Source: Halomonas sp.
GTDB taxonomy: Bacteria; Pseudomonadota; Gammaproteobacteria; Pseudomonadales; Oleiphilaceae
NCBI GenBank assembly: GCA_007135745.1
Contig: SLIH01000143.1
Span: 1-13,922, forward strand
Direction of reading: 5' to 3'
Length of the DNA: 13,922 nucleotides
The notes beneath the pieces are model-generated. The model worked only from the letters and a program-made list of their open reading frames with translations, was not told where the DNA came from and ran no database searches. Shown here piece after piece: positions 6,030 to 11,300 of this stretch (position 1 is the first letter of the stretch; each line of letters starts with the position of its first letter). A program made the translations under genes and the position numbers.

Positions 6030-6287
6030 ATGAACATTTCCGTCGAAATCAGCTATTACCCCCTGGCGGAGGATTACATTACTCCGATCAGGGCATTCAT
6101 CGACCGGCTTCAGGATTCGGGGCTGGAAGTCCATTCCAACCGTATGAGCACCCAGATTTTCGGCGAACATACAGCGGTCATGAAGGTGCTTGGCGAGCTG
6201 ATGGCCTGGTCATTCGAGACCTATGGAAAAGCGGTTTTCGTGGCCAAGTTCCTTGAGGGGGATCGGCGGCCTCATTCGGATCCGTGA
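6030..6287 (+). CDS. Small YkoF-like / thiamine-binding-family protein
   Basis: An 85-residue protein with a strong ribosome binding site (AGGAGG at 6019-6024, 5 nt before the ATG). The sequence begins MNISVEISYYPLAEDYITPIRAFIDRL, continues GLEVHSNRMSTQIFGEHTAVMKVL and ends in a strand-like KAVFVAKFL. This strand-helix-strand pattern with a central MSTxIxGE segment resembles the YkoF/MTH1187 (DUF77) ferredoxin-like proteins. Some members bind thiamine or its hydroxymethylpyrimidine moiety and others are uncharacterised. It has no signal peptide, so it is predicted to be cytosolic. It is a single-domain version, whereas B. subtilis YkoF carries two such repeats. It is the first gene of a plus-strand cluster, 63 bp ahead of the amidoligase gene. 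Ligand binding is inferred from family resemblance, with moderate certainty. Confidence 0.7.
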   Translation: MNISVEISYYPLAEDYITPIRAFIDRLQDSGLEVHSNRMSTQIFGEHTAVMKVLGELMAWSFETYGKAVFVAKFLEGDRRPHSDP

Positions 6288-6350
6288 TCCTGTTCGGCTG
6301 GACTATTTGTATGTATCCTTATGCCCCCCCTATCGACCCATGGAGCACTG

Positions 6351-7346
6351 ATGAGTGAGCCCCTGGCCTGTGAACTTCCGCCGTTGCGACGCAATCATGC
6401 TGGCGAGGAGCGTCGGGTCGGTGTCGAAATCGAACTTTCCGGACTGGATTACGAGGCACTGGTCTCGCTCACCGCGCGCTTTCTCGAGGGTGAAGCCCAC
6501 ACGGTCAGCCGCTACGTAAGCAAGGTGGCGACCGGAGACGGGGAATACACCATTGAGTTGGATTCCGACCCGGTCAAGGATCTGGAAGTCCGAGAGGAAG
6601 AACTACCCGAACCGCTACGCAGACTTGCCGGTCAGGCCATGGACCTGTTTGACGCGGCGGCGGAGCGCATTGTTCCCCTGGAAATCGTGGCGCCACCGCT
6701 GCCCGTCTCACGCCTGCACATCATCGAGGAACTCTGCGAATACCTGGCCAGGCAGGGTGCTCTGGGGAGTCGGCACGCGCTCTACTACGCCTTCGGACTG
6801 CAGCTGAATCCCGAGCTCCCCGGCCTCGATGCCGGCACCATCCTGCGTTATATGCAGGCTTTCGCCGGACTCTATCCCTGGCTAAAGTCCCGCCACCAGC
6901 TGGATATCAGTCGCAAGTTCACAACCTACATCGCCCCCTGGCCGGATGCCTATGTGAAACTGATCATGGCGGATGGTTATGATCCGGACCTGGACACCCT
7001 GATTACCGATTACATCCGGTTCAACCCGACACGCAACCGAGCTCTGGACATGATGCCGCTTTTCGCCTGGCTGAGGCCGGAACGGATTCGCACCGAGATT
7101 CAGGATGAACGCATCAAGGCTCGCCCCACCCTGCACTATCGCCTGCCCGACTGCGACCTGGATCAGGATGCCTGGCAGTTTGCAGGAATATGGAACGACT
7201 GGGTGGCGCTGGAGCGCCTGGCTTCAGATCCTTCCCGGCTGGCTGATTTCCGCGCGCGGTATCGCGAGAAAAAAGTCTTTTCCCTTCAGAATCTGGCCCA
7301 TGACTGGGTCCAGGAATGTGAGCGATGGGTCGTCGACGGGTCCTGA
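6351..7346 (+). CDS. Amidoligase-family protein (glutamine-synthetase/GCS-like COOH-NH2 ligase)
   Basis: A 331-residue predicted cytosolic enzyme. RRVGVEIELSG (21-31) is the ExE first strand seen in GCS-like amidoligases (Glu26, Glu28). EYTIELDSDPV (65-75) supplies a second acidic set (Glu69, Asp71, Asp73) suited to metal/ATP binding. YYAFGLQLNPELPG (145-158) resembles the GLxxN/H strand, and RFNPTRNRALDM (223-234) plus ARPTLHYRLPD (257-267) look like the Arg/Asn-rich substrate or nucleotide-binding part. The family is predicted to couple ATP hydrolysis to amide or peptide bond formation, often with glutamate or amino-group substrates; the actual substrates here are unknown. The ATG at 6351 is preferred over 6321 because GGAG at 6342-6345 lies 5 nt upstream and the extra residues (PPLSTHGAL) look non-coding. 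The 3' end overlaps the amidotransferase gene by 22 bp, implying coupled expression. Confidence 0.8.
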   Translation: MSEPLACELPPLRRNHAGEERRVGVEIELSGLDYEALVSLTARFLEGEAHTVSRYVSKVATGDGEYTIELDSDPVKDLEVREEELPEPLRRLAGQAMDLFDAAAERIVPLEIVAPPLPVSRLHIIEELCEYLARQGALGSRHALYYAFGLQLNPELPGLDAGTILRYMQAFAGLYPWLKSRHQLDISRKFTTYIAPWPDAYVKLIMADGYDPDLDTLITDYIRFNPTRNRALDMMPLFAWLRPERIRTEIQDERIKARPTLHYRLPDCDLDQDAWQFAGIWNDWVALERLASDPSRLADFRARYREKKVFSLQNLAHDWVQECERWVVDGS

Positions 7347-8023
7347 TTGGTGTCAGTGGTCGCGGACGCTATCGGTCCGATATTGGCCTGATCCGCTGGG
7401 CACTACGAAGCTGCGGCGCCCGTACACTCTGGCTACTGCCAGGCATGACGATCCCATGGTCGCGACTGGACGGGGTGGTCATTGCCGGTGGCATTCACGT
7501 CCACCCCCAACGCTATCACCAGCAACCCGAAATCCGCGCGGCATACAACCCGGCCCGGGACGAGCTGGAGTTCACGCTCCTGCACGGCGCCCATCGTCGC
7601 GGCCTTCCCGTGCTGGGCATCTGCCGGGGCGCCCAGGCCATCAATATTTTCCAGGGGGGTGATCTGCACCAGGACATCACATCCATGCGCCGTGAAACCC
7701 GTCCTCAGCGCCTGCTGCTGCCGCTGCAGCAGGTACTGATTAAAGAAGGCTCGCGGCTCAGTGGCATTCTTGAGCACAGACGGCTTGGGGCCAACCGCCT
7801 GCACAGCCAGGCCATACGGCGCCTGGGTCGGGGGCTGGATGTGGCCGCCCTGGATCGGGACGGCTTTGTGCAGGCCATTGAGGGGATGGAAGACCAGTGG
7901 CTGGTTGGAGTCCAGTGGCACCCGGAGTATTTGCTGTACCGACCGGCCCACCGACGGCTTTTCCGGGAACTGGTGCGAGCAGCCGGCATCCGGGCCAGAC
8001 AGGAAGAAAAACGGACCGGGTAA
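7325..8023 (+). CDS. Class I glutamine amidotransferase-like, gamma-glutamyl-GABA hydrolase (PuuD/peptidase C26) family protein
   Basis: A 232-residue cytosolic protein with the complete class I triad: nucleophile Cys100 in PVLGICRGAQAINIFQGG (95-112), and His199 and Glu201 in GVQWHPEYL. Other family marks are the N-terminal strand VLIGVSGR, the oxyanion-side strand DGVVIAGGIHVHPQRY (49-64), and NRLHSQAIRRLGRGL (157-171), which corresponds to the NSLHHQAI segment of PuuD-like enzymes. It is somewhat shorter than E. coli PuuD. The family hydrolyses gamma-glutamyl amide bonds. Next to an amidoligase it could trim or recycle the ligase product, or supply an amino group, and the sequence cannot decide between these. 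The ATG at 7325 lies within the end of the amidoligase gene, with AGGA (7312-7315) 9 nt upstream. The stop is 6 bp from the stop of the convergent small gene. Confidence 0.87.
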   Translation: MGRRRVLIGVSGRGRYRSDIGLIRWALRSCGARTLWLLPGMTIPWSRLDGVVIAGGIHVHPQRYHQQPEIRAAYNPARDELEFTLLHGAHRRGLPVLGICRGAQAINIFQGGDLHQDITSMRRETRPQRLLLPLQQVLIKEGSRLSGILEHRRLGANRLHSQAIRRLGRGLDVAALDRDGFVQAIEGMEDQWLVGVQWHPEYLLYRPAHRRLFRELVRAAGIRARQEEKRTG

Positions 8024-8029
8024 AGACCC

Positions 8030-8230
8030 TCAGACCGCCATGTACTTACGCAGCAAAACCTTCACCAGCCGGATCTCGGGCGTATCCGTGCGATAACTCT
8101 TCAGGTGCTGCTCGGTAAAACGGGCCAGGGTGGCCCGGTTCTTGATGAAGTGCGGATCAATACCGGTTATGCGCCGAAGAACCCGGCGTTCCTTGGGGGT
8201 CAGTCGAATCTGGTCATCATGTACAATCAT
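8030..8230 (-). CDS. Small basic protein of unknown function
   Basis: A 66-residue reading frame from the ATG at 8230, beginning MIVHDDQIRLTPKERRVLRRI and ending VLLRKYMAV. I do not recognise the family. It is rich in Arg/Lys and looks helical (KERRVLRRITG, RATLARFTEQHL, EIRLVKVLLRKY), with no signal peptide or membrane segment. An upstream GTG at 8281 would extend it by 17 residues, but those codons fall inside the heptad repeat and do not look like protein, so the ATG is preferred. No clear Shine-Dalgarno sequence precedes the ATG. It lies downstream of tamB on the same strand across the repeat, and ends 6 bp from the convergent amidotransferase gene. It is kept because it fills the gap neatly and has plausible composition. 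Confidence 0.55.
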   Translation of the reverse strand: MIVHDDQIRLTPKERRVLRRITGIDPHFIKNRATLARFTEQHLKSYRTDTPEIRLVKVLLRKYMAV

Positions 8231-8248
8231 GGCCCGGCACAAAAGCGA

Positions 8249-8388
8249 GTTACAGGTTAAAGGTCGCAGGTTCCAGGGCACAAGTCAAAAGTGAGATACC
8301 ACCGGAGATCTCGTACCTTGCCATGGTGCGGTTCGCTCCGCTCACCACACCCTACAAAACTCGCAACTTGTAACCTGTAACCTGCAAC
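8249..8388. repeat. Composite intergenic repeat: two inverted arrays of degenerate 7-bp units around a hairpin
   Basis: Bases 8249-8290 divide into six consecutive 7-mers, GTTACAG, GTTAAAG, GTCGCAG, GTTCCAG, GGCACAA and GTCAAAA. Bases 8354-8388 divide into five 7-mers of the opposite orientation, ACAAAAC, TCGCAAC, TTGTAAC, CTGTAAC and CTGCAAC. The arrays are inverted relative to each other: 8249-8259 (GTTACAGGTTA) is the exact reverse complement of 8371-8381, about 110 bp apart. Between them lies a palindromic segment (8324-8347). The element fills almost all of the gap between tamB and the small gene and stops 5 bp short of the tamB stop codon. Short degenerate heptad arrays of this kind occur between genes in various bacteria; their function here is unknown. 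Confidence 0.75.
8324..8347. repeat. REP-like imperfect palindrome at the centre of the heptad element
   Basis: TGGT-GCGG (8324-8331) can pair with CCGC (8338-8341) and ACCA (8344-8347), leaving a 6-base loop TTCGCT and a 2-base TC bulge. It is followed by CACCCTAC, so the segment resembles the GGTGCG...CACC palindromes scattered between genes in many proteobacteria. It could fold in RNA read from either strand. There is no T-run, so it is not a clear intrinsic terminator. Confidence 0.5.
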
Positions 8389-8393
8389 TTTCT

Positions 8394-11300
8394 TCAATAA
8401 TCCCGCTGATAGAAGATATCGATGGAATCCGCCAGACCGCTGGCCGCCTCCAGGAAGACCTGACGGGTCAGATCGTAGCGCACGGCGAGGCGGTTAACCG
8501 GCTGGAAGAGACCAACACCATAGCGCAGGCTGAGTCGATCCGTGATATACCCGGAAGCGACAACACTGGCCTCGTCACCGACACCTTCCTGTTCCAGCTG
8601 AAGGTCTCGGATACCGACCATTTCACCCAGCTCACGGGTAACCGGCGCTGCCTGAGCCAGACCCAGCGCCAGGGCAACCTCACCGACTACGTTGCTGTCG
8701 CCCTCGGTCCGAAGCGGCCGTCCAAAGACCAGATAGGACAACGCCTGTTGCTCGCTCATGGCCGGCTCGGAGAATATCTCGGCCTGGGGCTCCTCCGCCC
8801 GACCCGTAAGGCGAATACCAGCGACCACATCCCCTACCTCGCGTACAGCCTCAATATCCAGGAAGGGCTCATCCAATGGACCGGAGAAGATCAGCTGCGC
8901 ACGCCGGATGGTCAGGCGCTGGCCATAGATCTGATAACGGCCATCAATCAGTCCCAGCTCACCCCGGGCTTCCATTTCATCCACCAGCCGCAGCTGCCCC
9001 CGAAGGTTACCCGTGACCCCGAAGCCTTCAAAGCTGACCCTGTCTTCCCCGACAACGACCAACAGATCCATACGCAGGGGCAGTGCCTCGGCCCTTACTT
9101 CCTCGCCAACCACTTCTTCATCTTCGGAAACGCGAACCGCAGTCTCGGGCAGCGACTGAATCTCAACCGCACCACGGGGAACATCCACACGCCCCCCGAC
9201 AAGCAGGCCGTCTGCGTCATAACGAATCTCAAGCGCCGGAAAAACCGTCAGTCTCGCAAAGGGTTCCACAGACACCGGCAACTGCTCACCGTCTACGCGC
9301 ACATTAGCAACCAGCCCATCAGACCAGCTCGCCTCGCCACTGACTTCACCGGTTCCTTCGTCGCCACTGCTCCACTGACCACCAATCTCAGCCCGATTTC
9401 CCCCGACCAGAACCTGCAACTCAAGGGTATCGAAACGCATGGGGATACGTGGATCCGAAAGCCGCCCCTGCGTAAGCTGGAGTTCCCCTTCCACGTCCGG
9501 CATACGCAGAGGACCGGACAATTGAGCCTGGCCCTGCAATTGCCCTTCAACCACATCCAGATCCAGGAAGGGACGGGCAATGGCAAGGTCCAGGTCTTCC
9601 AGCCGGAATCGACCCTCTATGGGATAATCCTCATTGCGGGTATCCAGACTGAGTTCGGCATTGGCCGCGCCCAACTCCGGTCCGGCAAGATCAAAGGTCA
9701 GCCGTACCGATTCCGGATCGAGCTCGCCTTCGGCACGCAGACGCTCGTAATGGATGGGCATCCAGCGCTCCGTCTCGCCACGTTCAGCATCAGGAAAGGC
9801 ATCCATATCGTCAGGATCGATGGTGCGCAGGACCTCGACACGACCGGAGCCCGCATCCACCCAGAGATTGCCCCTGGGGCCTTCGGCGCCCAGCGAGATA
9901 TTTACGTACGCATCCAGGTTATCGTCCCAGCGCACATCCGGAGGCAACCAGGGTTGTACGATCCGGGTTGGCATATTATTGAGGCCGAGCGCCAGCTTCT
10001 GTTCCGGGAAAAGTTGCTGTTCATCGGCGCACAGGCTGGCCTCATCCCAACCCCAGCAATGGGCACCGAGCACTACGGCTTCCCGCGGATCAACGCTGAG
10101 TTCAGCCGGGGTCTGAAGCAGCCAGAGCTGCTCAAAGGCCGCCACCGCCCCGCTGATGACGCTGCCCTGCCAGGCCCCGTTCTGCCAGCCCCCCTGGGCC
10201 CCGAGATCAAGCTCCACCATGGGATGGACAAGGTGCACCGAGAGCCGGTGATCCGCCTCGTCGCCCTGAAATTCGATGCGACCGGCATCCAGCATCTGTT
10301 CCGCCGCCGACAGACCAGACCAGCTCAGCGTGGCTTCGCCCCCCAGCGCCTCGTGCAGCGTGGCCCGCAGACTGAGACTCTCCAGCTCAATCTCTTGCGG
10401 CTCCCAGGCCAGAGCCTGACCATCCAGTTGCGCCATACCCTGCGGTTTGCCAAGCAAATCGCTGGCGGCAACACGGCCCTCAAGCTGCCCTGCAAGGCCG
10501 GGCCAGAACTGATCCAGAGCGGACAGCCCGATGTGGAGATCCGCATCAATCTGCCCCGCCTGGCGGGCGTTCCCCGAGAGCCGATTATCGCCAAAACGCA
10601 GATCCAGTTCCCGCAGCGTCCAGTTTTCTCCAGCCAGGCTCCCGCGGCCGGCGAGTTGTACCGGCTGTTCCCTGAGTTCACCGCTGATATCGACGTCGGC
10701 ATCCAGCTCAAGCCCCTCCTCCGGAAGGCTTCCCCTGCTGCGAAGAGACCCGGACAGATCACCCGCCAGTTCCTCCAGCCAGAAGCCGGGATTGACTCCA
10801 GCCAGGGCCAGATCCGCATCCCAACGGAAGAGTTCGTCCCAACCGAGATCCAAACGTCCGTCAATCCGCCCCTGAGCGGCACTCAGGGCGAGCTGCGGCA
10901 GACGAATTCCGGAAAAATCACCATTGAACGGGGTGCTGACGTGAACGGGCCCTTCCGACGTGGACAGGTAGCCATCCAGTTCCCCGTGATAGTCGGACCC
11001 ACGCAGGGCAAATGCCAGGGCTGCCTGCTCAAGCACCACAGGGGGCGCTTCCATCTCCGGGAAAAGCCGGAGCCAGGGGAAGTTACGCCAGTCAAGGTCT
11101 GCTTCCACCAACAGCTGTTCCGTCCAGTCCACCCGTCCCTCGGCCAGTCTGAGGTACTGATGCTCGGACAGATCCAGATTGAGATGATCCACGCGCGCCC
11201 TTTCCAGGTCCACGTGTCCGGCAAGGGACACCGGCGTACCGGGCTCGGTCTCCAGAATGGCATCGCCGGTGACATCCCAGCCCGCATCAAGATCACCCCG

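Follow-up and report, generated by a model that had tools for sequence, protein, structure and literature searches.

The 13,922-nucleotide stretch of DNA analysed here (hereafter, the window; contig SLIH01000143.1, forward strand) encodes an amidoligase and a peptidase C26-type hydrolase in overlapping frames, a gene pair that proved to be strongly co-inherited in this amidoligase subfamily. The window belongs to a Halomonas sp. genome assembly of 2.56 Mb in 482 contigs that is 68% complete, and its amidoligase has its closest named relatives in Oleiphilaceae and Marinobacter. The amidoligase gene (331 amino acids) occupies positions 6351..7346 of the forward strand, stop included, and is followed on the same strand by the gene of the C26/class-I glutamine amidotransferase (GAT)-like hydrolase (232 amino acids; 7325..8023). 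The frames overlap by 22 bp at 7325..7346, as already reported in a preliminary description of this DNA. The amidoligase open frame begins at 6321; since the ATG at 6351 is preceded by GGAG at 6342-6345 and the database copy of the protein (P0001) has 331 amino acids, we consider 6351 the better start.

Two proteins with intact active-site residues

The first protein matched the Pfam profile PF12224 (Amidoligase_2) over model positions 1-244 of 245 with 179.3 bits (cut-off 22), and its predicted structure matched the glutamine synthetase (GS) superfamily fold, both of which confirm its initial designation as a GS-fold amidoligase. Databases already name such gene products 'amidoligase family protein'. 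The fold family of GS and glutamate-cysteine ligase forms amide bonds through an acyl phosphate. Residues E26, E28, E69, D71, E111, N153, R228, R258, H262, and R264 were identical in all 143 aligned amidoligases. They include the acidic positions of the motifs E26-x-E28 (codons at 6426..6434) and E69-L-D71 (6555..6563), which had been described as intact. These residues may bind metal or ATP.

The second protein scored 149.6 bits against PF07722 (Peptidase_C26; cut-off 20.5) and 47.2 bits against PF00117 (GATase; cut-off 22.8), and the solved chains that matched it by sequence were Lin1909, SpuA, and PuuD. The catalytic triad inferred in the preliminary description, Cys100-His199-Glu201, was retained across an alignment of 138 hydrolases: the predicted nucleophile Cys100 (codon at 7622..7624) in 137, His199 in 136, and Glu201 in 135 of them (His199-Pro-Glu201 codons at 7919..7927). 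The misses corresponded to gaps in the proteins of loci L144 or L088 (one for Cys, two each for His and Glu) and to a single Asp in place of Glu201.

Co-inheritance, fusion, and replacement of the hydrolase

The preliminary description had proposed a survey of how often the two genes adjoin. For this survey we fetched 117 loci: 17 from a class-level genome sample, 20 from a sample of the window's family, and 80 named from a scan of the genome_contigs collection. An alignment query confirmed at least 579 relatives in that collection, the best 80 of which were kept, while a single-sequence query confirmed none of 16. Once two loci without a BLAST-joinable amidoligase (L019 and L035) and eight duplicates had been removed, 107 distinct loci remained. 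L019 looks phage-like. A C26 gene lay directly downstream of the amidoligase on the same strand in 102 of the 107, so the adjacency exceeds chance; its conserved first strand started between -9 and +85 nt from the amidoligase stop. This set is Marinobacter-heavy, with 62 amidoligases >52% identical to that of the window and 45 more distant ones, and the adjacent C26 was present in 60 and 42 of these loci, respectively. It was absent from L034, which is a second paralogue, and from L080, L105, L152, and L163.

Broader sampling gave a similar picture. PF12224 was detected in 17 of 274 genomes of the class sample, with an adjacent C26 in 15 of them, and in 24 of 398 genomes of the phylum sample, with an adjacent C26 in 20. 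The phylum-sample genomes in which none was found adjacent were G415, G489, G490, and G550; the PF12224 matches of the last two are weak or fragmentary and their surroundings were unexamined (in the incomplete genome G550, contig C114 holds four weak fragments, L257-L260, within 5 kb). In the window's family, 42 of the 61 sampled genomes had a PF12224 match, and the C26 gene was adjacent, by position, in 41; in the remaining genome, G284, it is unlinked. Amidoligase and hydrolase are thus strongly co-inherited in this subfamily.

The hydrolases that accompany the amidoligase also form a lineage of their own. We inferred a C26 tree of 88 sequences comprising the hydrolases of 42 distant pairs, a random draw of 8 of the 60 close pairs, the window protein, 9 of 35 amidoligase-hydrolase fusions, 2 unlinked proteins, and 26 of the class-sample loci that scored highest for PF07722, none of them next to an amidoligase; two weaker class-sample PF07722 genes, in the genomes G222 and G106 without a PF12224 match, were left out. 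All pair, fusion, and unlinked proteins grouped in one clade (support 100/99) and the 26 others fell outside. In a second, quick tree, the 33 of 41 adjacent family-sample hydrolases that were in hand branched on the pair-clade side (SH-aLRT 99). Six more unlinked C26 genes of the family sample, the strongest of its unlinked matches and two of them from genomes without PF12224, fell in the ordinary clade. The dedicated hydrolase clade occurs almost only where an amidoligase is present.

In addition, we found the two domains fused in one chain: 35 PF12224+PF07722 fusions appeared among the 120 matches listed out of 197 for a joined-pair query. The amidoligase was N-terminal in the six fusions read, which is the gene order of the window; one fusion (P0148) is labelled Opitutales. 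The model of fusion P0159 (pLDDT 87.7, pTM 0.73; no interface measure) matched the SpuA and PuuD structures above the GAT domains of GMP and CTP synthetases. In 37 of the 138 aligned hydrolases (34 fusions and the proteins of L024, L031, and L032), 45-54 residues replace the usual 12 between two C26 motifs. Within this insert lies a hydrophobic stretch of 18 residues, whose mean Eisenberg hydrophobicity was 0.33-0.71 in the nine of the 37 that were examined and in both unlinked proteins; the insert is missing from the window's own C26. The divergence of amidoligases and hydrolases was correlated (r 0.894 for 50 pairs, a value reached in 0 of 2000 permutations), which we do not take as evidence of contact because shared vertical descent also yields such correlations.

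Two of the loci without an adjacent C26, L080 (genome G284) and L105 (Marinobacter MAG-100, a metagenome-assembled genome or MAG), encode intact window-type amidoligases. These two proteins share 53% identity, and the closest relatives of either one retain the C26. Both genomes contain an unlinked C26 of the insert type, which belongs to another branch of the pair clade. Besides these genomes, an insert-type match occurred in the family sample only in G279, a 70% complete MAG, where the frame is broken and the place in the tree is unsure; it is the single such case among the 19 family genomes without PF12224. From these two cases, the adjacent C26 appears to have been lost twice and compensated each time by an unlinked one, suggesting that what is needed is the hydrolase activity and not one particular subunit. 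Neither the fusions and the dedicated clade nor the replacement cases and the solitary amidoligases described below figured in the preliminary description.

A putative amide cycle and competing explanations

The folds of both proteins, their intact active-site residues, their co-inheritance and fusion, and the amidoligase-linked hydrolase clade form the computationally established basis of the interpretation that we favour, to which we give slightly better than an even chance: a gamma-glutamyl-amide ligase and its dedicated hydrolase that constitute a two-enzyme amide cycle. In an ATP-dependent reaction, the amidoligase would activate a carboxylate (that of the glutamate side chain, the gamma-carboxyl, being the likeliest) and join it to an amine; the C26 enzyme, acting as a gamma-glutamyl-amide hydrolase, would take the group off again or free the product after another step. 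We prefer this chemistry because the ligase fold family makes amides, the C26 kin cut gamma-glutamyl amides, and enzymes of the AtdA2 type offer a precedent. The C26 partner groups with enzymes such as SpuA, whose structure 7d50, by its title, concerns gamma-glutamyl-amide cleavage through a glutamyl thioester.

Polyamine modules of the PuuA/PuuD type likewise combine a GS-fold ligase with a C26 hydrolase, and the solved chains matching the window hydrolase include SpuA and PuuD. In contrast with these modules, the window ligase belongs to another family, without any match at E 0.001 to the PF00120 domain found in GS-family amine ligases, and its partner lies in a separate clade and scored far below the cut-off of the PuuD equivalog NF008471 (69.2 versus 266 bits). 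Genome G277 carries both kinds of module: on contig C144, an ordinary C26 gene (161034-161519) sits between two PF00120 genes (157600-158598 and 161873-162871), and the amidoligase pair is on contig C131. No Puu-type oxidoreductase or aldehyde dehydrogenase genes occurred among the Pfam-assigned window neighbours of the pair.

The gamma-glutamylanilide synthase/hydrolase AtdA1/AtdA2 and its counterpart NpaA1/NpaA2 provide a second parallel, being likewise encoded in one cluster with a GS-like ligase followed by a GAT-like enzyme. According to PMC11335346, AtdA2 reverses the AtdA1 reaction and NpaA2 is considered likely to act in the same way: in the aniline cluster, and probably in that of 1-naphthylamine, the GAT-like enzyme hydrolyses the ligase product and holds a toxic amide at low levels. 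AtdA1 and NpaA1 are described there as GS-type enzymes, unlike the window ligase, and their clusters run on into a dioxygenase, none of which was seen near the window pair.

The strongest competitor of the amide cycle, which we rank below it and deem rather unlikely, is a two-subunit glutamine-dependent amidotransferase in which the C26 protein splits glutamine and the amidoligase uses the ammonia to amidate an acid, an arrangement like that of MurT/GatD or GMP synthetase. MurT/GatD is likewise encoded by two co-transcribed genes, for an amide ligase and a glutamine amidotransferase, although, according to PMC5871853 and PMC3267633, MurT resembles Mur ligases instead of having the GS fold and the complex amidates peptidoglycan. 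Overlapping genes, fusions, strong co-occurrence, and correlated divergence are all typical of such pairs, the hydrolase exceeds the PF00117 cut-off, and GMP- and CTP-synthetase GAT domains do match the fused model. However, they do so below SpuA and PuuD, both sequence and fold of the hydrolase are nearest to free-standing gamma-glutamyl hydrolases, and the correlated divergence is equally expected from common descent. Moreover, the two lineages without an adjacent partner have a divergent unlinked hydrolase; this replacement of the hydrolase between subfamilies is our main argument, an indirect one, for the amide cycle over an ammonia-supplying amidotransferase.

Several observations weigh against the amide cycle. 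If ligase and hydrolase shared one product, the cycle would be futile without regulation or an intervening third step, and no conserved third enzyme accompanies the pair. Informative neighbours are rare, with GGACT in 2 and an adjacent GGT in 1 of the 107 loci. The amidoligase also occurs alone. The Halieaceae MAGs of L152 and L163 (completeness unstated) keep it and have only weak, general GAT-type C26 matches (best E 6e-9), and it was solitary in five (L219-L223) of eight alphaproteobacterial plasmid regions viewed, L218, L224, and L225 having the pair; these regions were taken from 11 matching records, H6, H10, and H11 being left out. The paralogue L034 lacks a hydrolase of the clade, and none was found adjacent in the four phylum-sample genomes mentioned above. 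Finally, profile-profile comparison did not firmly tie the ligase either to GS (E 0.15) or to GCS2, where the order of the motifs agreed (E 0.0083, probability 4.8%), so that glutamate as substrate would rest on the fold and the partner.

A further possibility, which we regard as improbable, is that the pair conjugates and deconjugates a peptide, a protein side chain, or an envelope polymer, in the manner of PafA and Dop on Pup. PafA was indeed among the Foldseek matches of the amidoligase (E 0.041, rank 6), and PMC10580990 discusses the amidoligase and GATase genes of phages as suggested cell-wall modifiers. Nevertheless, apart from the VTT and SIMPL genes described below, no gene for a small substrate protein or an envelope polymer recurs beside the pair among its partly annotated neighbours, and the closest kin of the C26 clade are hydrolases of small molecules. 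The cassettes of LUZ24-like and OM43 phages also place PF12224 near a glutamine amidotransferase, which in PMC3890496 and PMC10580990 is a PF13522 protein, whereas the partner in the window is a C26 enzyme. No phage record matched the window amidoligase (tblastn, E 1e-5), and none of 24 candidate stretches from a scan of viral_contigs was confirmed as a relative.

We give hardly any credence to the already disfavoured idea that the genes are functionally uncoupled neighbours through inheritance alone: Marinobacter-type synteny does cover unrelated genes as well (TamB-like downstream in 57 loci, TamA-like in 56, and LexA-like upstream in 40, named from their sequences), but the pair persists in the distant loci, where a VTT gene is the neighbour most often found shared, fusions exist, and an unlinked hydrolase is present where the adjacent one was lost.

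Iyer, Abhiman, Burroughs and Aravind reportedly predicted systems of GS-like amidoligases and GAT partners from gene neighbourhoods in 2009, so the pairing itself had probably been foreseen. As in the preliminary description, which knew of no substrate or biochemical assignment, we found no assay of a PF12224 enzyme among the titles and abstract beginnings of the amidoligase literature searched, which excludes most subscription journals. Nor did we find any previous description of how often the two genes co-occur, of the dedicated hydrolase clade and its fused members, of the replacements, or of the VTT neighbours, although this search was aimed at amidoligases generally and such a description may exist. 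The regular hydrolase partner makes a first PF12224 assay tractable, since the substrate of the hydrolase is a good guess for the product of the ligase. If the amide cycle is correct, another ligase family would join gamma-glutamyl-amide chemistry for the handling of amines.

Neighbouring genes and hints of a membrane link

The C26 gene was directly followed by a gene for a VTT-domain protein (PF09335) in 14 of the 45 distant loci, and these 14 belong to two branches of the pair clade. In the alphaproteobacterial locus L271, a VTT protein of different build directly follows the pair, and a similar VTT gene precedes the amidoligase in L032. The scan, which covered 132 loci (107 + 17 + 8), detected VTT genes at 19 sites: 15 immediately follow the pair on its strand, one lies directly upstream, and three are elsewhere in the flanks; those beside the pair represent two VTT types. 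In L220 and L221, it missed two annotated DedA genes that lie ~3 kb away from the amidoligase. No VTT gene directly followed the pair in the 62 Marinobacter-type loci scanned, and Pfam identified none among ten frames of the window. DedA-family proteins have been suggested as undecaprenyl-phosphate flippases (PMC10127716).

Together with the hydrophobic C26 insertion, the VTT neighbours hint at a membrane-linked substrate, and the VTT link would suggest a role of the pair at the membrane. One speculative scheme, with a small chance of being right, is a membrane-surface amide cycle in which the ligase would add a glutamyl or similar group to an amine-bearing lipid or lipid-linked intermediate, the VTT protein would translocate it across the inner membrane, and the C26 enzyme would remove the group. 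In 40 Marinobacter-type loci, the pair is followed on the same strand by a SIMPL-domain (DUF541) gene, which precedes the TamB-like gene (2071-2766 in L116, where Pfam identified it).

Other neighbours were considered as partners and rejected or set aside. The small YkoF-like or thiamine-binding-like gene at 6030-6287 (+), upstream of the pair in the window (PF07615, 24.2 bits, cut-off 21), recurred in none of the 107 loci (tblastn, E 1e-3), although it was matched in 40 of the 61 family genomes, including that of the window. An RND-permease cluster was near the amidoligase in only 5 of the 107 loci; an RND gene lies just upstream of it in L152 and L163, and in the window it is on the opposite strand. 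The C26 family includes the folate gamma-glutamyl hydrolase, and we considered a link with folate poly-glutamates. Two queries found no FolB among the 107 loci beyond L031, where a FolB-like protein, named from its sequence, is encoded near the amidoligase (9934-10425); apart from these loci, a dihydroneopterin aldolase (FolB) gene identified by Pfam sits beside the amidoligase on the D. shibae plasmid (L225, 2207-2602, +). The gene beside the amidoligase in L058/L080, which we take to be similar to GABA aminotransferase, is convergent and was seen in that single genome.

We also recorded a polyphosphate kinase gene directly upstream of the amidoligase in L142 (5748-7868, +) and L261 (8207-9013, -); one of these kinases is a PPK1 and the other a PPK2. 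In five of the six phylum-sample loci of family f4 (L264, L265, L266, L267, and L272), a large protein is divergently transcribed from the amidoligase; Pfam identified it as a mechanosensitive channel in L264.

Within the window, Pfam assigned the neighbours of the pair to an RND pump, its adaptor, a FadL-like protein, TamA, TamB, and the YkoF-like protein, and two small frames had no match. The RND adaptor and permease are upstream of the pair on the opposite strand; downstream, also on the opposite strand, one of the unmatched small frames (8030-8281) is followed by TamB and TamA. Promoter and terminator scans of the window stayed at chance level, and it contains no Rfam match and no tRNA. 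Between the small frame and TamB, at 8250-8395, motifs resembling 'taacctgtaacctgcaac' recur, some as the reverse complement, and may represent a short interspersed repeat.
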